From IMG/VR virus record IMGVR_UViG_3300044716_000130, positions 1 to 27,635 of that record: DNA of 27,635 bases, one strand, 5' to 3'. The stretch comes from a virus. The notes beneath the pieces are model-generated. The model ran no database searches. It saw nothing but the letters and a program-made list of their open reading frames with translations, and was not told the DNA's origin. Below are positions 18,728-26,560 of the stretch, in pieces. Position 1 is the stretch's first letter; each line of letters begins with the position of its first letter. A program made the translations under genes and the position numbers.

Positions 18728-18744
18728 TGGTATTCTATTATGCA
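18728..18744 (+). promoter_or_regulatory. Rightward extended -10 promoter, probable leaderless start
   Basis: TGGTATTCT (18728-18736) is an extended -10 box. The ATG of the 88-residue gene begins 7 bases later, exactly where transcription would start, and no ribosome-binding site is present. That is the signature of leaderless mRNAs common in actinobacteria. The hexamer 17 bases upstream (ACGTCT) is a poor -35. The box overlaps the leftward -10 almost fully. Confidence 0.5.
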
Positions 18745-18760
18745 TGGGCTTTTTCGGCAA
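18732..18760 (-). promoter_or_regulatory. Leftward late promoter
   Basis: On the minus strand TTGCCG (18755-18760) is followed after exactly 17 bases by TAGAAT (18732-18737). This matches sigma-70-type consensus at 4/6 and 5/6. A start near 18725 would give a short leader containing the AGGAG of the GTG-started nuclease gene. It would drive the whole packaging and structural operon. Its -35 lies inside the first codons of the divergent rightward gene. Confidence 0.6.
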
Positions 18761-19010
18761 TGAGCAATCAACATACCAGCAGGTAAAAGATTTCCATGTC
18801 AACTCTGACGTGGACGAAAACCCGCTTGCTTACCATCATACACTAGGTCCGTTGGCTGGGCAGGCTAGCCCTGGAGATCACGTTCACGACGGAAAGACAT
18901 CGAAGAAGATAAACTTCTCTGACATCGAGGGTGGTTTATGGAATATCGACGGCGGTATTCCTAGTACGATTTACACTCCGATCCCAGCTTGGGACGGTGG
19001 AGGAGTCTAA
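18744..19010 (+). CDS. Small tail/fibre-associated protein, His-rich
   Basis: 88 residues: [20 protein letters not shown], then [20 protein letters not shown]. The HHTLG...ASPGDHxHDG segment recurs in actinobacteriophage tail-fibre proteins, and its HxH pair could bind a metal ion. A short Gly/Pro-rich C-terminus ends at the stop, which shares a base with the next ATG (TAATG, with GGAGGAG just upstream). It is the first gene of the adhesin arm, and it may attach the collagen-like fibre to the tail. Another start at 18740 gives only a 7-codon frame. Confidence 0.6.
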
Positions 19011-20920
19011 TGGCAGTAATTTTACAGCTCAGGCGCGGCACTGCCGCTGAGTGGACTGCCGCTAACCCATTACTTGCTCAGGGTGAAATGGGTGTTGAAA
19101 CCGACACGCTCAAAGTCAAAATCGGTAATGGATCTACCGTATGGACATCGCTACCTTACTTTACTCAGGGTGCCACTGGTGCTACTGGACCTACTGGCCC
19201 TACTGGTGCAACAGGTGCAACTGGTCCTACAGGCGCGACTGGCCCTACTGGCCCCATTGGTTTAACAGGTGCAACAGGCGCAACTGGTGCTACTGGACCA
19301 CAAGGTATTCAGGGTATTCAGGGCGTCAAAGGTGATACTGGAGATACTGGTCCTACTGGGGCTACAGGACCGCAGGGTATTCAAGGCGTTAAAGGAGATA
19401 CTGGAGATACTGGGCCAACAGGCCCAACTGGTGCTACAGGTGCTACTGGCCCGCAGGGTGTCAGCATTACCCTTAAGGGTACTGTTGCTAACGTAGGCGC
19501 TTTGCCGTCAAGCGGTAACGCAGTAAATGATGCCTACATTGTTTCAGCTGACGGAGATCTTTATGTCTGGAATGGTACTGCCTGGAACTCAGTTGGTCAG
19601 ATTGTAGGACCTGAAGGACCTACTGGGCCCACTGGGCCAACTGGACCAACTGGCCCTACAGGCCCTCAAGGTATTCAAGGTGTCAAAGGTGACACTGGTG
19701 ACACTGGCCCTACAGGCCCAACTGGTGCTACTGGAGCACAAGGTATTCAGGGTATCCAGGGTGTAAAGGGTGACACTGGAGACACTGGCCCAACTGGTCC
19801 TACTGGCGCAACTGGTGCTACTGGTGCCACAGGAGCTGACTCAACAGTGCCTGGTCCTACTGGCCCTACTGGTCCTACTGGCCCTGCGGGTCCTACAGGC
19901 GCAACAGGTGCCACAGGTGCAACTGGTGCAACAGGTGCAGGTGTCGTAGCTGGCGGAACTGAAGGGCAGATCCTTGCTAAGAACTCAGCTACGGATTACG
20001 ACACCGAATGGATCGACAACTTTACTGGGCAAGTTAAGCACCTTGTAAAGAACTCAACTGGCGTGACAATGCCAAAAGGCTCAGTCGTTTACGTGTCTTC
20101 GGCTAGCGGAACAAACATGAACGTTTCGCTGGCGGATGCTGACACTGAAGCAACGTCATCAAAAACTATGGGTCTTTTGGAAACTGCATTAGCTACTGGC
20201 GATATTGGCTACGTTGTTACTGAAGGTTTACTTTATGGACTAAACACTAACGCTGCAACTGCTGGGCAGGCTGTATGGCTATCCTCTACTCCAGGTGAAT
20301 TTGTCTTTGGCACTCCGCCAGCTAAGCCAGCTCACAGCGTTTACTTGGGTGTTGTTACCCGCGTGCAATCTGTAAACGGCGAAATCTTCGTAAAGGTACA
20401 AAACGGTTACGAGCTTGAAGAGCTACATAACGTATCTATAACTAGCCCTGCAGACGAGCAAGTATTGGCCTACGAAGCTGCAACTGGCCTTTGGAAAAAC
20501 GTAGCAGCATCTGGTGGTGCTAGCGTGACGATCTCTGAAACAGCACCAGCAAGCCCAGTTGCTGGCAACGTTTGGTACAACTCTACTGAGGGAACTTCTT
20601 ACATTTACTACGACAGCTTCTGGGTTCCGATCTCTCCGCCAAAAGCAGGCCTTGAGATCGTTTCTTCTGCCGCTAACCCAGCTAACACAAACGTAATTTG
20701 GTACAACACAGAAAACGGTAATTCTTACATTTACTACGACAATTATTGGGTGTCTTTGTCTGGGGGTTCAAATGATTTTGCTATCCAGCTTAATGGGCAA
20801 ATAATTTCCGCTAATTATGAGATACCTACAGGCTATAATGGAGTAAGTGCAGGACCGATTACAATTGCTACTGGTGTCACTGTGACCATTCCTACTGGAT
20901 CAGCTTGGAGCATCGTATGA
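19010..20920 (+). CDS. Collagen-like tail fibre with Mtd-type N-terminal domain
   Basis: 636 residues from the ATG at 19010 (GGAGGAG upstream); the longer frame from 18989 would overlap the previous gene. Residues 1-50 match the major-tropism-determinant N-terminal domain: [44 protein letters not shown]. Residues 54-150 and about 200-310 are Gly-X-Y collagen repeats ([24 protein letters not shown]), split by a globular insert (151-199) with [19 protein letters not shown] beta-rich C-terminal part follows, with two copies of a Trp/Tyr module: [13 protein letters not shown] and [13 protein letters not shown]. Likely a trimeric stalk with receptor-binding domains. No reverse transcriptase or template repeat is present, so it is not a diversity-generating target within this window. 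Confidence 0.85.
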
Positions 20921-21474
20921 GTGAACTATCTGTAGGTCAACTACGTGGACTGACTGTAAATAGCAACGTTATTACTGTGCCTGCTGGCCACAAGCTTTAC
21001 GCTCCAGGTTCAGTTGTTCAGGTTGTATCGGCCACAAAAACAGATACCTTTACACTAAGCTCTACAACATTTACCGACATTACTGGGTTTAGCGCGACAA
21101 TTACTCCTTCTTCAGTAAATAGTAAAATTTACATTGTTGCCACCATTATGTCAGGTCAAAATATTCAAGTAACTGCTCAGCACTTTTTACTTCTTAGAGA
21201 CTCAACTTCAATTTCTATTGGTGACGCTGCTGGGTCACGAACTCGGGTATCTTCAGGATCTTACGCCAACAGTGTAAATGAAGTAGTTCCTGTTTCAATA
21301 TCTTTTCTCGATTCACCAAGCACGACTTCTGCCGTCACATATAAAGTTCAGACAAGATCTAGCGTTTCAGGAGGAGGAAACGCCGTTTATATCAATAGAG
21401 GCAATGGAGACGGAGACGGAGCAAATATCTCAAGAGGAGTTTCAACAATTACTCTTATGGAGATAGCACAATGA
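20917..21474 (+). CDS. Tail fibre/adhesin paralogue 1
   Basis: 185 residues from the ATG at 20917, which overlaps the collagen-like fibre stop (ATGA). Beta-rich and Ser/Thr-rich, with the module [20 protein letters not shown], then [11 protein letters not shown] and a C-terminus [15 protein letters not shown]. This module is common among small virion or tail-tip proteins of aquatic phages. It is clearly paralogous to the third gene of the triplet (22022-22537), sharing TDTF, DITG(F/L)SATITP, GDAAGSR, DSP and STITLxEIAQ at the same positions. It probably forms or decorates a tail-tip receptor-binding complex. Confidence 0.7.
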
Positions 21475-22025
21475 GTACATTAAGAGCAACTAACGTACAA
21501 GACCTTGGTGGAGTAAACCAACTTATAAAGCCAGGAATGGTTGTGCAGGTGCAAACTGTTAGAAGTGACGCTAGAGTAACTTTTGCTCAAAATAACTCAG
21601 GCAACGGAACTACTATTACTCCGTTAAACTTAAGCATTACCCCGAAATTTGCAAACAGCAAATTAATTATGCAATGGATGATAAACGCAGAAAGTAACCA
21701 CGACACTGTTTTTTTAATTCATAGAGACGGTTCTTTAATAACAACTGCTGGCGCAACTGGCTATAACGCTGAGTCTGGAAACGTTAGATGGTCTGGAGTT
21801 GCAGCTGGAGCCTGGGACAATGATAATTCCACTACTCCTAGCAACTACTTTATTCAATACGAGTGTATTGCTGGCTCTACTTCCCCACAAGTATTTGCCC
21901 CAGCAACAAGAGCTTCCTTTGGTACAAGTCAGACTCTTTTCTTAAACAGAACAGTTAGAAGCACAGGCCAAGATAATGATGAAACAATGATTTCAAACGG
22001 AACAATTTGGGAGATAGCACAATGA
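21471..22025 (+). CDS. Tail fibre/adhesin paralogue 2, diverged
   Basis: 184 residues; the ATG overlaps the previous stop (ATGA). Same general plan as its neighbours: PGMVVQVQTVRSDARVTF, then LNLSITPKFANSKLIMQWMI in the place of SATITPKFASSKILVQVVM, and a C-terminus TIWEIAQ. The middle (about 85-160) is unlike the flanking copies (YNAESGNVRWSGVAAGAWD), which suggests replacement or fast evolution of the surface part. A receptor-contact or decoration role is inferred from the family and position. Confidence 0.7.
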   Translation: MSTLRATNVQDLGGVNQLIKPGMVVQVQTVRSDARVTFAQNNSGNGTTITPLNLSITPKFANSKLIMQWMINAESNHDTVFLIHRDGSLITTAGATGYNAESGNVRWSGVAAGAWDNDNSTTPSNYFIQYECIAGSTSPQVFAPATRASFGTSQTLFLNRTVRSTGQDNDETMISNGTIWEIAQ

Positions 22026-22537
22026 CATCAACAATGAGATTTGACAAATGGGAAAACAGCCTTGGTCAGCCATACGGAACAGTGCTGCAGGTTGTGCAGG
22101 CGGTGAAGACGGATACTTTTTCAATGTCTTCTACCACATACGCCGACATTACAGGCTTATCTGCTACTATTACCCCTAAATTTGCATCAAGTAAAATTTT
22201 GGTTCAAGTAGTTATGAGCGTCAACGCGGACCAAAATAATACAACAGCTATGTTTAAGTTGCTCCAAGGGTCAACAGAAATCGGTTTGGGTGATGCTGCT
22301 GGCTCCAGATTAAGGTCAGCTTTCCCTCGTGTGGGGTCATCTGCCGCAAATAGCATAAATGTTGTCTCTAATTTTTTTGATAGTCCAGCCACAATCTCAG
22401 CAACCACTTACAAAATTCAAGTAAGAACCGAAGTTAATGGGAACTCTGTTCACATAAATAGGTCCACTAGTGATGGAGACTCTGCAGTTGCTTCCCGCTC
22501 AATATCTACAATTACCCTAACAGAAATCGCACAGTAA
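22022..22537 (+). CDS. Tail fibre/adhesin paralogue 3
   Basis: 171 residues from the ATG at 22022, overlapping the previous stop (ATGA); the longer frame from 22007 is not needed. VLQVVQAVKTDTFSMSSTTY, then DITGLSATITPKFASSKI and the C-terminus SISTITLTEIAQ make it the close paralogue of the first copy. The tandem triplet, all joined by ATGA overlaps, implies matched synthesis of the three proteins. They may form a hetero-oligomeric tip or alternative adhesins. Confidence 0.7.
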   Translation: MTSTMRFDKWENSLGQPYGTVLQVVQAVKTDTFSMSSTTYADITGLSATITPKFASSKILVQVVMSVNADQNNTTAMFKLLQGSTEIGLGDAAGSRLRSAFPRVGSSAANSINVVSNFFDSPATISATTYKIQVRTEVNGNSVHINRSTSDGDSAVASRSISTITLTEIAQ

Positions 22538-22545
22538 GGAAAATA

Positions 22546-22863
22546 ATGAACAGAACATTTGGAATAGTAGAAGCGCTTAGCTCACTTGCACCTGGTGCAC
22601 AGTGGAGCCTAAATGGCGATGACTACGCTGGCCTTGACTGGCTAGATGAAGAGCAGGCTCAGCCAACTGAGGCTGAGTGCCTAGCAGAGGCAGCAAGGCT
22701 ACAAGCTGCTTATGACGCACTAGAGTATCAGCGACTTCGTGCACCAGAGTACCCAGCAATAACTGACTACCTAGACGGTATTGCTAAAGGTGACAAGGCT
22801 CAGGTTGACGCTTACATCGCTGCTTGCCAAGCAGTAAAAGCAAAATACCCAAAGCCTGAATAA
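22546..22863 (+). CDS. Tail-assembly-chaperone-like / XkdW-like protein
   Basis: 105 residues. The N-terminal half (ALSSLAPGAQWSLNGDDYAG, then LDWLDEEQAQPTEAECLAEA) resembles the small XkdW-like proteins found next to phage fibre genes. The C-terminal half (LEYQRLRAPEYPAITDYLDG ... AVKAKYPKPE) is a module I know from many marine and cyanobacterial phages, where it also lies beside tail-fibre genes. AAGGA stands 6 bases before the ATG. A likely role is fibre assembly or a small virion accessory, but neither is shown by sequence. Confidence 0.65.
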   Translation: MNRTFGIVEALSSLAPGAQWSLNGDDYAGLDWLDEEQAQPTEAECLAEAARLQAAYDALEYQRLRAPEYPAITDYLDGIAKGDKAQVDAYIAACQAVKAKYPKPE

Positions 22864-22878
22864 ATAAGGATTTAGCTA

Positions 22879-23832
22879 ATGCCCATTGACTTTCCATCTG
22901 GCCCTACCACTGGGCAGATATACACCTACCAAGGTAAGTATTGGGTTTACAATGGCACTGCCTGGGATGTAGTTAGTTCTCGTGACGCGCAAATACCTAT
23001 TGAATACCTAGTAATAGCTGGTGGCGGTTCTGGAGCTTGTCTTGATGGTGGCGAAGGTGGTGGCGGTGGTGGTGCTGGTGGTTATCGCACAAATGTTGTA
23101 GGTCAACTTAGCGGTGGTTCCTCTGCAGCCGAACCTGCCTTTACTTTTACCCTTAACACTAACTACCGAATTATTGTAGGTGCTGGTGGAGTTGCAGCAG
23201 CTTTTGATTGGGGCTACCGACCTGGAGCTATAGGTAGTCGTTCAGCTTTCGGTGTTATTACTTCTCAAGGTGGTGGTGGTGGTCGTACCCGTTTTCTTAG
23301 CGATAATGCAACTGGCGGTTCTGGAGGCGGTGGAAACCAGCACGGCAATACTCGTGGACTTGGAATTATTGAGCAAGGGACTGATGGAGGTCTTGGTCCT
23401 CTTACTAATACCATAAACGCTGGGGGTGGTGGTGGTGGTGCTGGCGTGGCAGGTCCAATAGGTCCGACTACTGCTAACGGCACCGCTGGTGGAGCTGGTT
23501 TATCTTCAAATATTACAGGTTCTGCTGTAATTCGTGCTGGTGGTGGTGGTGGTGGTGGTAACAATTCTGGAGGAGCTGGAGGAGCTGGCGGTGGTGGTGC
23601 TGGCAGTGCAGCTAACGTTAACGGCAATAGTGCTACTGCCAATACTGGTGGTGGCGGTGGTGGTTCCACAAACAGAATCGCTGGTAATGGCGGTTCTGGC
23701 ATAGTAATACTTCGATACCCATCTCAATACACAATTACTATTGGCGCAGGTCTTACTGGCACAACTGCAACCGTCGGTGCAACCAATGTAACTACATTTA
23801 CCGCTGGCACAGGAAACGTGAGCTGGACATAA
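22879..23832 (+). CDS. Glycine-rich adhesin 1
   Basis: 317 residues. Residues 1-34 form an N-terminal module MPIDFPSGPTTGQIYTYQGK, then YWVYNGTAWDVV. The body (about 45-275) is dominated by Gly runs (GGGGGGAGG, GGGGG) with EYLVIAGGGSG, matching the glycine-rich domain of phage tail adhesins. The T4-like S16 gp38 adhesin uses packed polyglycine helices in a similar composition. The C-terminus has VILRYPSQYTITIGAGLTGT and ends TAGTGNVSWT, a segment shared with the second glycine-rich protein. AAGGA lies before the ATG. It probably contacts the host surface directly. Long antisense frames here are only the Pro-rich mirror of Gly codons. Confidence 0.75.
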   Translation: MPIDFPSGPTTGQIYTYQGKYWVYNGTAWDVVSSRDAQIPIEYLVIAGGGSGACLDGGEGGGGGGAGGYRTNVVGQLSGGSSAAEPAFTFTLNTNYRIIVGAGGVAAAFDWGYRPGAIGSRSAFGVITSQGGGGGRTRFLSDNATGGSGGGGNQHGNTRGLGIIEQGTDGGLGPLTNTINAGGGGGGAGVAGPIGPTTANGTAGGAGLSSNITGSAVIRAGGGGGGGNNSGGAGGAGGGGAGSAANVNGNSATANTGGGGGGSTNRIAGNGGSGIVILRYPSQYTITIGAGLTGTTATVGATNVTTFTAGTGNVSWT

Positions 23833-23864
23833 TGGCACATTATAAGTTAGGTACGGTACAATAA
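23832..23864 (+). pseudogene. Short remnant of a MAHY-type gene start
   Basis: A 10-codon frame (MAHYKLGTVQ) begins at an ATG overlapping the stop of glycine-rich adhesin 1. Its first 12 bases, ATGGCACATTAC/T, match the start of the intact 88-residue MAHY gene at 25168, apart from the last base. It occupies the same place after a glycine-rich gene as the intact copy does. I read it as a truncated duplicate; the match is short and could be chance. Confidence 0.35.
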
Positions 23865-23868
23865 GATC

Positions 23869-24033
23869 ATGCCAGCTATTGATTTTCCAAACTCCCCTAC
23901 AGTAGGCCAGCTATTTACAGTTGGAGATACTACTTGGGAGTGGACTGGTGTACTCTGGAGAGGGTTTACATCATTCACAAGCCTTAATTTACCAGATCCG
24001 AGTCCGCAAATATTTTTACTAATGGGAGCTTAA
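23869..24033 (+). CDS. Stand-alone fibre N-terminal module (54 aa)
   Basis: 54 residues: MPAIDFPNSPTVGQLFTVGD, then TTWEWTGVLWRGF and a short tail ending FLLMGA. It aligns along its first 33 residues with the N-terminus of glycine-rich adhesin 1 (MPIDFPSGPTTGQIYTYQGK...YNGTAWDVV), but ends before any glycine-rich domain. The second glycine-rich protein, downstream, lacks this module. So this is either a free-standing attachment module or the detached front of a duplicated adhesin gene. It has a weak ribosome-binding site and a 1-base gap to the next ATG. Confidence 0.6.
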   Translation: MPAIDFPNSPTVGQLFTVGDTTWEWTGVLWRGFTSFTSLNLPDPSPQIFLLMGA

Positions 24034-24034
24034 G

Positions 24035-24367
24035 ATGGCAACAATTTACAAAGTGCTAGGCCAGTCAGCACCCGCTGCAACTACCAACGTCAACTTATAC
24101 ACAGTGCCTGCAGTGACCAGCGCAGTGATATCCACAATTGTTGTCGCAAATAGAGTAAATACTTCGGCAACATACAGAATTGCAATTAGACCAGCAGCGG
24201 CAGCAATAGCCAACCAACACTATATTGCTTACGATGTTGCTGTTGCTGCAGCAGACTCTACTACCCTTACTCTTGGAATTACGCTAGCAGCAACTGACAT
24301 AATCACTGTTTACTCCAGCACTGCAAACTTAAGCTTTAGTGTATTTGGTTCTGAAATAACGAGCTAA
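24035..24367 (+). CDS. Small virion/fibre protein, marine-phage type
   Basis: 110 residues: ATIYKVLGQSAPAATTNVNL, then ANQHYIAYDVAVAAADSTTL and ITVYSSTANLSFSVFGSEI. This pattern (yKvLGQsaP...hYIayDv...ttLtlGitL...sFs.fGsEi) is frequent in structural proteins of cyanophages and other aquatic phages, usually as a small beta-rich virion protein or decoration. It is inserted between the detached N-terminal module and glycine-rich adhesin 2. No signal peptide or membrane segment is evident. The exact location in the virion is unknown. Confidence 0.65.
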   Translation: MATIYKVLGQSAPAATTNVNLYTVPAVTSAVISTIVVANRVNTSATYRIAIRPAAAAIANQHYIAYDVAVAAADSTTLTLGITLAATDIITVYSSTANLSFSVFGSEITS

Positions 24368-24369
24368 TT

Positions 24370-25158
24370 ATGGCGGTTCAAGGTTTAAGAACTTCTGGGA
24401 TAGTAAATTACCAAAGACAAAAAAGCATTGCTACTAATTTTCCATTAATCGTTGAACATCTAGTAGTAGCTGGCGGTGGTGGTGGTGCAACAGATGCCGA
24501 CGTAGGAGGAGCAGGAGGAGCAGGAGGCTTAATTGCTGGAACTATGAGCCTAACTGCGGGGCAAACATATTCAGCAACAATTGGAGCAGGTGGAATTAGG
24601 GGAACTGGCCCCGACGTCACTGGTGTTGGTGGTGGAAGCAATGGTGGAAATGGTGGAAACACATTATTTGCTAGCTTAACTGCTATTGGTGGTGGTGGTG
24701 GTGGAACTCGACAGAGCAATGGAGCTGCTGGTGGTTCTGGTGGTGGTGGTGGTGACAACGGCAGGGCTGGTGGAGCTGGTACTGCGGGTCAAGGATTTGC
24801 TGGAGCTAATAGCCCAGGAATGAACGGAAATGGTGGTTTTGACTCTGGTGCAGGTGGTGGTGCAGGTGGTCCTGGCTCCCTTAACGTTGCAGGCCCAGGA
24901 TTAGTAAGCACGATTACTGGAGTAACGTACGCAAGGGGAGGTATAGGCTCTCAGGGTGGTAGCTTAACTGCAGGAGCTGACAATACTGGAAACGGTGGAG
25001 ATGGCTGTCGGCCTGGAGGGTCTGGTATTATTGCTCTTAAATATCCAATATTTTATAACATTACAATTGGTGCTGGCCTTACTGGCTCAACCACAACCGT
25101 TGGCACAAACAAAGTAACAATAATAACAGCTGGCACTGGAAACGTCAGCTTTAACTAA
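24370..25158 (+). CDS. Glycine-rich adhesin 2
   Basis: 262 residues, a paralogue of glycine-rich adhesin 1 without its N-terminal DFPSGP module. It contains EHLVVAGGGGGAT, repeated GGAGG and GGGGG runs, then ALKYPIFYNITIGAGLTGST and a final TAGTGNVSFN. The shared C-terminal block (YNITIGAGLTGSTTTVG...) is close to YTITIGAGLTGTTATVG in copy 1. It likely forms a polyglycine-type tail-tip domain for host recognition. It is followed 9 bases later by the intact MAHY-type gene. Confidence 0.75.
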   Translation: MAVQGLRTSGIVNYQRQKSIATNFPLIVEHLVVAGGGGGATDADVGGAGGAGGLIAGTMSLTAGQTYSATIGAGGIRGTGPDVTGVGGGSNGGNGGNTLFASLTAIGGGGGGTRQSNGAAGGSGGGGGDNGRAGGAGTAGQGFAGANSPGMNGNGGFDSGAGGGAGGPGSLNVAGPGLVSTITGVTYARGGIGSQGGSLTAGADNTGNGGDGCRPGGSGIIALKYPIFYNITIGAGLTGSTTTVGTNKVTIITAGTGNVSFN

Positions 25159-25167
25159 GGAAAACAA

Positions 25168-25434
25168 ATGGCACATTACGCATTTTTAGATAAAAACAAC
25201 ATTGTCACTGAGGTGATCACTGGCATTGATGAGACTGAGCTTATTGAAGGCTTGGATACCGAAACTTGGTATGGCAACTTTAGGGGTCAGGTTTGCAAGC
25301 GCACTTCTTACAACGGCAACTACAGGGGTCTTTATGCTGGCATTGGCTACACATACGATGAAGAGCTTGATGAGTTTATTGCTCCACAGGCAGAGAAGCC
25401 TCTAAACCTCGAAGAGCCTGAATCTGCGCTATAA
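25168..25434 (+). CDS. MAHY-type small tail-associated protein
   Basis: 88 residues: MAHYAFLDKNNIVTEVITGI, then CKRTSYNGNYRGLYAGIGYT and YDEELDEFIAP. The block (K/R)TSYNGNxRxxYAGIGYTYD is strongly conserved in a small protein of many cyanophages and pelagiphages, always near tail-fibre genes, with undescribed function. This copy is a little short for that family, with a reduced middle. AAGGA lies 6 bases before the ATG. Its presence in a likely actinobacterial phage points to exchange of adhesin genes among aquatic phages. Confidence 0.7.
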   Translation: MAHYAFLDKNNIVTEVITGIDETELIEGLDTETWYGNFRGQVCKRTSYNGNYRGLYAGIGYTYDEELDEFIAPQAEKPLNLEEPESAL

Positions 25435-25470
25435 TAAGCTTTAGATTAACACCTAACACGGGAGCATTTA

Positions 25471-25791
25471 ATGCCTAGAGTAAACCTAATCCAAGTTCGC
25501 AGAGATACTGCCGCCAACTGGACAAGCGCTAACCCTACCCTTGCTGCTGGCGAAACAGGCTTTGAGACTGACACCCGCCTAACTAAAGTCGGTACTGGAG
25601 CTGCCACTTGGACAGCCCTGCCTTACACTGCAGCATCAGTTGCAGACGGCAGCATTACTACCGCCAAGTTTGCTCCTACTGCCTCTACTACTTTTGTTGG
25701 CGGTAAAAGGATTATCGTACAGACAACCACACCAACTGCGCCTGCTGGCGGATTTGGTGTAGGCGATGTCTGGATCTCTTACACAGCTTAA
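25471..25791 (+). CDS. Short fibre protein with a second Mtd-type domain
   Basis: 106 residues. Residues 1-52 repeat the Mtd-type N-terminal domain seen in the collagen-like fibre: LIQVRRDTAANWTSANPTLA, then GETGFETDTRLTKVGTGAAT and WTALPY. Residues 55-75 (ASVADGSITTAKFAPTAS) are a common fibre linker, and the C-terminus (GFGVGDVWISYTA) is short. Full fibres normally carry a receptor domain after such a start, so this looks like a minimal or truncated fibre, or a separate base for the next gene. GGGAG precedes the ATG. Confidence 0.7.
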   Translation: MPRVNLIQVRRDTAANWTSANPTLAAGETGFETDTRLTKVGTGAATWTALPYTAASVADGSITTAKFAPTASTTFVGGKRIIVQTTTPTAPAGGFGVGDVWISYTA

Positions 25792-25804
25792 GGGGGTCTA
25801 ACTC

Positions 25805-26560
25805 ATGGCAACCGCAGCAACCAACGACAGCGCCGCCCGTGCCAGACTAACCGTAGACGCTTCTGGTGGACAAAACGTAATAAGCTGGTCAGCATCTGTT
25901 ACAGACAACAACGCAAGCTTTACTGGTTTTGGTGCTAACGGTGCAAGCTGGACCGTAACTGCTGGACCATATACCTTAGCCAGTGCTAGCAATCAAAGCT
26001 ATGACTTTGGTACTGGAAACGTCGCTGGCCCGTACTTTCCAAGGTCACAATCAGGAACTGTAACTGGTGTTCCCGCAGGAACCTACACTGTTTCTGGAAC
26101 TTTCACTACTACTGGCGTAGTTGGAACCGCAACCATAACACCATTTAGCGTTACAGTTACTTCTCCGCCTCCCCCTACCCCAGCCCCAGTATTTTCAGAT
26201 GCCACCGTTGCTAGCTCAGCAAGCATCGGCATAGCCTATAGCGATGGCGTTGCTGCTAGCAACTCGCCAAGCTATTCGGTTATCTCTGGAGCCCTACCTA
26301 CTGGGCTTAATCTAAACAGCGGTACTGGTGCGATCACTGGAACCCCTACGGTTAATGGAACATTTACATTTGTAATCAGAGCTTCCAACGCAGGAGGTAG
26401 CGTAGATACTGGTACCTTGACAATTACAGTTGTCAGTGCCGCTAGGGTCTGGAACGGCACTGCGTTTGTGCCAGGCCTAGCCAATGTATGGAACGGGACT
26501 GCCTTTGTATCTGGTATAATTAAAGTTTGGGACGGTTCAAATTGGGTAAATACCAACTAA
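25805..26560 (+). CDS. Ig-like domain adhesin with WNGT repeats
   Basis: 251 residues, beta-rich and Ser/Thr-rich. Residues about 1-120 form an uncharacterised beta domain, followed by a Pro linker (PPPPTPAP). Residues about 130-210 match a putative bacterial Ig-like (He_PIG type) domain: SYSVISGALPTGLNLNSGTG, then AITGTPTVNGTFTFVIRASN. The C-terminus has three short repeats: VWNGTAFVPGLA, VWNGTAFVSGII, VWDGSNWVN. Such domains bind cell-surface glycans in phage tails. GGGGG lies before the ATG. It is the last gene of the adhesin arm before the lysis genes. Confidence 0.75.
   Translation: MATAATNDSAARARLTVDASGGQNVISWSASVTDNNASFTGFGANGASWTVTAGPYTLASASNQSYDFGTGNVAGPYFPRSQSGTVTGVPAGTYTVSGTFTTTGVVGTATITPFSVTVTSPPPPTPAPVFSDATVASSASIGIAYSDGVAASNSPSYSVISGALPTGLNLNSGTGAITGTPTVNGTFTFVIRASNAGGSVDTGTLTITVVSAARVWNGTAFVPGLANVWNGTAFVSGIIKVWDGSNWVNTN

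Follow-up and report, generated by a model that had tools for sequence, protein, structure and literature searches.

A putative three-gene split fibre beside a one-piece fibre in a viral tail-fibre array

The long tail fibres of T4-type phages are built from separate polypeptides (gp34-gp35-gp36-gp37), with a small joint between the proximal and distal parts. In Pam3, the β-sandwich of gp25 is reported to bind the TNF-like and Gly-rich domains (PMC9608196). S16 gp38 is placed beside Pam3 gp24/gp25 among the closest known systems.

The DNA examined here is the IMG/VR virus record IMGVR_UViG_3300044716_000130, positions 1 to 27,635, and this whole stretch of 27,635 nucleotides is referred to as the window. 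Tail-fibre genes occupy its right side (18744-26560), where there is a collagen/Mtd_N protein, tandem small fibre-end proteins, two Gly-rich proteins, and Mtd_N and Ig-like proteins. Three small fibre-end proteins in a row at 20917-22537 make up a further tandem array, the first and third being 51% identical over 155 residues.

A preliminary description of this DNA, made from the sequence alone, reported that a Gly-rich gene followed by a MAHY gene occurs twice, and proposed a duplicated cassette with one copy broken apart. All of the DNA features it listed were recovered at the same positions by an open reading frame check, including the repeated order (22879-23864; 24370-25434). The features discussed below are as follows.

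22879..23832, + strand: GLY1, one-piece fibre protein of 317 aa, with DFP module, Gly-rich tip and MAHY-associated C-terminal tail (from PF21722 and the DFP alignment)
23734..23824, + strand: C-terminal tail repeat, copy 1, 79% to copy 2 (pairwise comparison)
23832..23864, + strand: MAHY stub, MAHYKLGTVQ*, 10 codons, remnant of a MAHY start and unlikely to be a functional gene
23857..23862, + strand: TACAAT, −10-like, 6 nt before the DFP54 ATG, candidate leaderless promoter
23869..24033, + strand: DFP54, minimal anchor gene of 54 aa, with DFP module (codons 1-33), free linker and FLLMGA end
24013..24030, + strand: FLLMGA C-terminal peptide; the GGAG inside it may double as the P110 Shine-Dalgarno
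24035..24367, + strand: P110, jelly-roll protein of 110 aa, proposed joint
24370..25158, + strand: GLY2, Gly-rich tip of 262 aa with adaptor-type N-terminus MAVQGLRTSGIVNYQRQK
25060..25150, + strand: C-terminal tail repeat, copy 2 (pairwise comparison)
25168..25434, + strand: MAHY, 88 aa, proposed chaperone of the Gly-rich tips

We consider it probable that this region belongs to a phage tail-fibre array with one one-piece fibre and one three-gene split fibre with a docking joint. GLY1 would be the one-piece fibre, with a DFP anchor fused to a Gly-rich tip. In the split fibre the anchor would be DFP54 with its FLLMGA end, P110 would be a small jelly-roll joint between anchor and tip, and GLY2 would be the tip, beginning with an adaptor peptide. 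The C-terminal FLLMGA and the N-terminal adaptor would dock on a P110 oligomer, with the anchor providing the presumed tail-facing end, and such docking would let varied anchors and tips swap as separate genes. The stub after GLY1 would be an old MAHY remnant, and the sole intact MAHY probably helps to fold both Gly-rich tips, which retain the same C-terminal tail. Of this picture, the order of the genes, the conservation of the motifs and the junction of the relic are observed directly, whereas the docking, the oligomer, the orientation towards the tail, the chaperone and the promoter are inferred.

The MAHY stub and the intact MAHY gene

Of the 116 distinct MAHY-type genes examined, 114 lie directly after a gene for a Gly-rich protein (at least 20% Gly). 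In 90 of the 116 the start overlaps the preceding stop codon by one base (TAATG in 88, TGATG in 2), and the exact junction TAATGGCACAYTAY is found in 70. The ATG of the stub overlaps the TAA of GLY1 at a junction identical to this one, after which the MAHY frame closes at ten codons. Five loci have an intact MAHY-type gene at the stub's place, in the order Gly-rich gene, MAHY-type gene, DFP gene, P110: L016, L034 and L037, of the MAHY kind (97, 121 and 121 aa), L218, of the MSHW kind (117 aa), and L072, of the MAHF kind (87 aa). These are the syntenic intact homologues by which a decayed gene is recognised, and the stub looks like a genuine relic of a MAHY gene, as had been proposed at the outset.

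The stub is common to five contigs, namely the window and four others (a pattern scan of IMG/VR gave it in four contigs), and on contig 3300042465_005350 it reads MEHYKLDKL and stands behind a relocated GLY1-type gene, before an unrelated gene. The relic seems to travel with GLY1. Because it is common to five contigs, and in one case lies beside a relocated gene, the stub is old; the partial loss suggested in the preliminary description therefore holds for MAHY, but not as a recent event. A TAGTGNVSW-type tail is present in 97 Gly-rich genes, of which 82 have MAHY behind them and 15 do not. Five of these 15 are the stub family, one has its MAHY cut by the contig end, and nine lack MAHY in some other manner, so the stub family is not alone in having such a tail and no MAHY of its own. 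None of the 116 genes upstream of MAHY-type genes was an intact MPIDFP-type Gly gene followed by an intact MAHY. An origin of the stub in a MAHY head joined to a MAHY tail is possible but is not claimed here, as the TAAGG part is also a common promoter form.

The stub and the −10 element could alternatively have been retained for a function of their own, as a promoter spacer or a tiny leader ORF, and not be the product of decay. The 36-nt spacer is of the same length in the five contigs and TAYAAT stands 6 nt before the next ATG, both of which favour retention. The stub peptide nevertheless varies (MAHYKLGTVQ, MTHYKLGTVQ, MAQHKLSKVQ, MAQYKPSKVQ, MEHYKLDKL), and the changes, judged by eye, do not look coding. 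We regard retention for such a function as unlikely, if still worth bearing in mind, and prefer to read the stub as a relic.

The MAHY gene at 25168-25434 is the single intact one found in the window. At 88 aa it is shorter than many relatives (111-121 aa), and the SWxLDEETCxW end of several of them is absent. As would be expected of a chaperone gene, the MAHY type sits directly after a fibre tip gene (the 114 of 116 cases above), and the tail type of the Gly-rich gene goes with the MAHY type (95 and 5 versus 4 and 12). A model of a 119-aa relative (pLDDT 92.3) has one helix only (31-39), and MAHY is not assigned to the Tfa/gp25-type chaperones because the C-terminal helical trimerisation domain of that type is missing from the model. 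When 82 chains were compared with it, only 7ypx_a (Z 4.4; a Pam3 fibre entry of 162 residues, the same length as gp25) and 5yvq_B (Z 2.6; a chain of the Mu fibre-chaperone complex, taken as Tfa) reached Z 2, both being weak matches; residues 1-72 of MAHY align with residues 3-56 of 7ypx_a. Foldseek alone returned nothing for the model at E 0.001, Pfam gave nothing above cutoff for two longer relatives, and a PDB sequence search with MAHY gave nothing significant (best E 0.15). We take a chaperone role of MAHY for the Gly-rich tips as a lead only; if it holds, GLY1 would survive the loss of the MAHY behind it because the two tips, which end in the same tail, are served by a single chaperone.

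The FLLMGA end and the DFP54 gene

Of 75 distinct genes standing immediately before P110, 64 have an FLLMGA-like end, compared with 9 of the other 2481 called genes; the pattern was written after a first listing that overlaps the 75-gene set. For this reason a further set was fetched from unused contigs (61 loci, with 23 dropped as from contigs already seen), in which 48 of 62 genes upstream of P110 have such an end; the sequences in both sets are related, so these counts are not of independent events. The genes without the pattern (11 of 75 and 14 of 62) comprise near variants (such as HPFLLMGV and LILMGAL) and some plain misses, and one of them is of the MAHY type. Another 10 P110 genes in the further set yielded no upstream gene. 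At L260, L300, L326, L292 and L293, P110 follows a similar stretch without a called gene, rich in GTAC words and ending AAGGAGTC, which is possibly a shared regulatory region.

Single linkage at E 1e-3 sorts the N-termini of the 113 FLLMGA-motif genes with complete starts into 23 unlinked groups; in this method chaining can merge groups and weak homology can split them. Mtd_N domains were found in 2 of 10 scanned proteins upstream of P110.

Instead of serving as a docking peptide, FLLMGA could have arisen as a by-product of the P110 Shine-Dalgarno (ATGGGAGC) and translational coupling, since GGAG lies within the motif and the commonest gap to P110 is 1 nt (36 of 113). However, the codons vary synonymously (Phe TTT/TTC; Leu TTA, CTT, CTA, CTC; Gly GGC/GGT/GGG besides GGA), and the Phe and Leu positions outside GGAG are conserved despite these changes. 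GGC or GGT at the glycine breaks GGAG in 20 of the 113 genes, and in 10 of the 113 the motif is retained at gaps of at least 20 nt. The synonymous variation and the persistence at long gaps suggest that FLLMGA is more than a ribosome-binding site, which makes the by-product account quite improbable, and argue that the peptide, and not the DNA alone, is conserved at this end. In pairs with unlinked N-termini there was no covariation between the FLLMGA tail and P110 divergence (r = −0.022, with 178 of 500 permutations as low).

Three close relatives keep DFP54 over all 54 residues at 78-81% identity, with the same 36-nt gap and the same gene order as the window. Between the window and each relative dN/dS is 0.08-0.10 for codons 1-33, 0.5-1.2 for codons 34-46 and 0.18-0.25 for DFP54 as a whole, while that of P110 is 0.10-0.14, and this pattern along the gene suggests that DFP54 consists of a module, a freely varying linker and a constant end. 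For L004 against L005 and L006, codons 1-33 give 0.29 and 0.45 and the entire gene gives 0.89 and 0.95; the unevenness among relatives stems from the small number of changes, and the high whole-gene values from the linker. The codon comparisons indicate that the DFP module is under purifying selection.

The preliminary description regarded the DFP module as split from its Gly-rich body by an unrelated gene, and named a split shared by relatives and kept by selection as what would speak against this. Such a split is what the three relatives and the dN/dS of codons 1-33 reveal, and the supposedly unrelated gene, P110, is the usual partner of FLLMGA-ended genes. The phrase "broken apart" thus suits the MAHY remnant but is mistaken for DFP54, which, judging from its conservation, most likely is not debris of an insertion but opens a conserved triad.

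No Shine-Dalgarno was seen before DFP54, and TACAAT stands six bases ahead of its ATG. The pattern TA-N3-T is found at −12 or −13 in 12 of 15 DFP genes that are followed by P110, compared with 9 of the 85 others. Leaderless promoters are known in Actinobacteria, and the arrangement fits a candidate promoter of this kind. Two more window genes without a Shine-Dalgarno, at 18744 (+) and 18285 (−), have TA-N3-T 12-13 nt before the ATG.

The P110 joint and the triad in other phages

P110 is an open reading frame of its own, of 108-112 aa, in 90 of 90 cases; at L039 6433-7132 there are two P110 genes in tandem. The P110 model (pLDDT 94.6) has eight strands in a jelly roll, and its best fold matches in the PDB, jelly rolls as well, include plant nucleoplasmin-like HDT proteins (Z 10.2), KHP40 trimeric cement (Z 9.7) and subunits of Ena pili (Z 8.7). 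It also matches predicted cyanophage tail-fibre-like and virion proteins, and in more distant predicted relatives the fold lies within longer tail-fibre-like proteins (S-CAM1, 380 aa; P-SSM2, 504 aa). The P110 of the window (E 1.3e-9) and 62 of 62 alignment members match phrog_1276, which has no assigned function, while 51 of 62 match phrog_693 and 32 of 62 phrog_11338, both named tail fibre protein; the phrog_1276 and phrog_693 profiles (325 and 493 positions) are longer than P110. A PDB sequence search with the P110 alignment gave nothing significant (best E 0.36). The match to KHP40, together with the commonness of jelly rolls, would allow P110 to be a cement or decoration protein of the capsid whose gene simply adjoins the fibre genes, but its usual place between anchor and tip genes, the tail fibre names in PHROGs and the predicted tail-fibre-like relatives make this very doubtful.

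The genes after P110 have a common motif at the N-terminus (AUC 0.91 and 0.92 in cross-validation), which is loose, as 16 and 17 of 35 lie above the 99% control level and the top controls include other fibre genes of the same arrays.

The triad was found in two named phage records, phiPsal1 (genes 020-021 and the following ORF) and OX376640, in the same order as in the window. Both differ from the window in anchors, which end ALMLMGG in phiPsal1 and VFMLMGA in OX376640, and in tips, which start MSIRSLSRSTIQDF and MSISSLKTG respectively. The phiPsal1 tip is a Gly-rich ORF with a TTG start (L240 8349 onward; 15857 in the phiPsal1 record) that is unannotated in its own frame; the record has other ORFs at that place, with "no BlastP matches". 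According to its published description, phiPsal1 is the genome of a lytic phage detected in a culture of Pontimonas, and the phage has since been lost (PMC6106888). OX376640 is taken, from the record name, to be phage E7, which was cultured on 'Ca. Nanopelagicales' (PMC10202952). HTVC010P gp24 is a P110 relative according to the phiPsal1 annotation, and its upstream gene ends AIALG, not FLLMGA. In the literature searched, whose coverage leaves out most subscription journals, no account of the triad was found in titles and abstract openings, and "FLLMGA" occurred in no paper. Genome contigs with P110 (4 loci) are from Microbacteriaceae, 'Ca. Nanopelagicales', Actinomycetota and one Gammaproteobacteria MAG, and these taxa make an actinobacterial host likely.

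The Gly-rich tips and comparison with known fibres

The GLY1 and GLY2 proteins agree at 41% over 286 residues, a figure inflated by Gly composition. A 91-nt repeat closes both genes (23734-23824 versus 25060-25150, 79% identical), and the DFP module of the 317-aa protein aligns with that of the 54-aa protein at a score of 63, compared with 25 or less in 2000 shuffles. These likenesses exceed chance. Both Gly-rich proteins belong to Pfam PF21722 (Gly_rich_2; GLY1 55.4 bits and GLY2 35.7 bits, cutoff 24.3). The separate 54-residue DFP gene had been correctly recognised, but its N-terminal module is common to the first Gly-rich gene, GLY1; the N-terminus of GLY2 differs (MAVQGLRTSGIVNYQRQK) and is of the type found in genes after P110. 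The DFP module is also N-terminal in a protein annotated as long tail fiber proximal subunit. Searching phage records by tblastn with both Gly-rich proteins gave no match at E 1e-5, DNA matches of the region to phage records are limited to short stretches of two spring-water phage records, and a PDB sequence search with GLY1 gave nothing significant (best E 0.096).

A recent duplication of a DFP-Gly-rich-MAHY cassette, with P110 inserted into the second copy and the first MAHY lost, would account for the duplicated C-terminal tail, the common DFP module and the MAHY stub, but is highly improbable given that three relatives have the same split, that P110 partners FLLMGA-ended genes in many phages, that GLY2 starts with an adaptor N-terminus of its own and does not represent the lost remainder of a DFP-Gly protein, and that five contigs have the stub in common.

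The split fibre proposed for the window could be one case of a general plug and socket, in which any FLLMGA-ended anchor joins through P110 to any tip of the MAVxxLxxSxI type, and tips are exchanged without fusions in many freshwater and marine phages, several of them linked to actinobacterial hosts. We put this forward tentatively, with slightly more doubt than belief. If true, it would help to explain the mosaics of tiny "hypothetical" genes in host-range regions of phages of lake bacterioplankton. It would also provide a signature to search for (FLLMGA end, P110, adaptor start), by which anchors and tips without detectable homology could be annotated, and a natural connector for studying the exchange of receptor-binding modules in laboratory phages.

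Like the T4-type fibres, the proposed split fibre would consist of separate polypeptides with a small joint protein. It differs in its joint, which would be a jelly roll of 110 aa, and in its contacts, which seem to be made by short peptides at the protein ends. The Gly-rich tips and MAHY recall Pam3 gp24/gp25, for which the published account describes a phage-encoded chaperone dedicated to a Gly-rich domain that recognises the receptor (PMC9608196). Unlike gp25, the MAHY model is without a C-terminal helical trimerisation domain, and unlike the split fibre of the window, the Pam3 fibre is, in that same account, a single protein.
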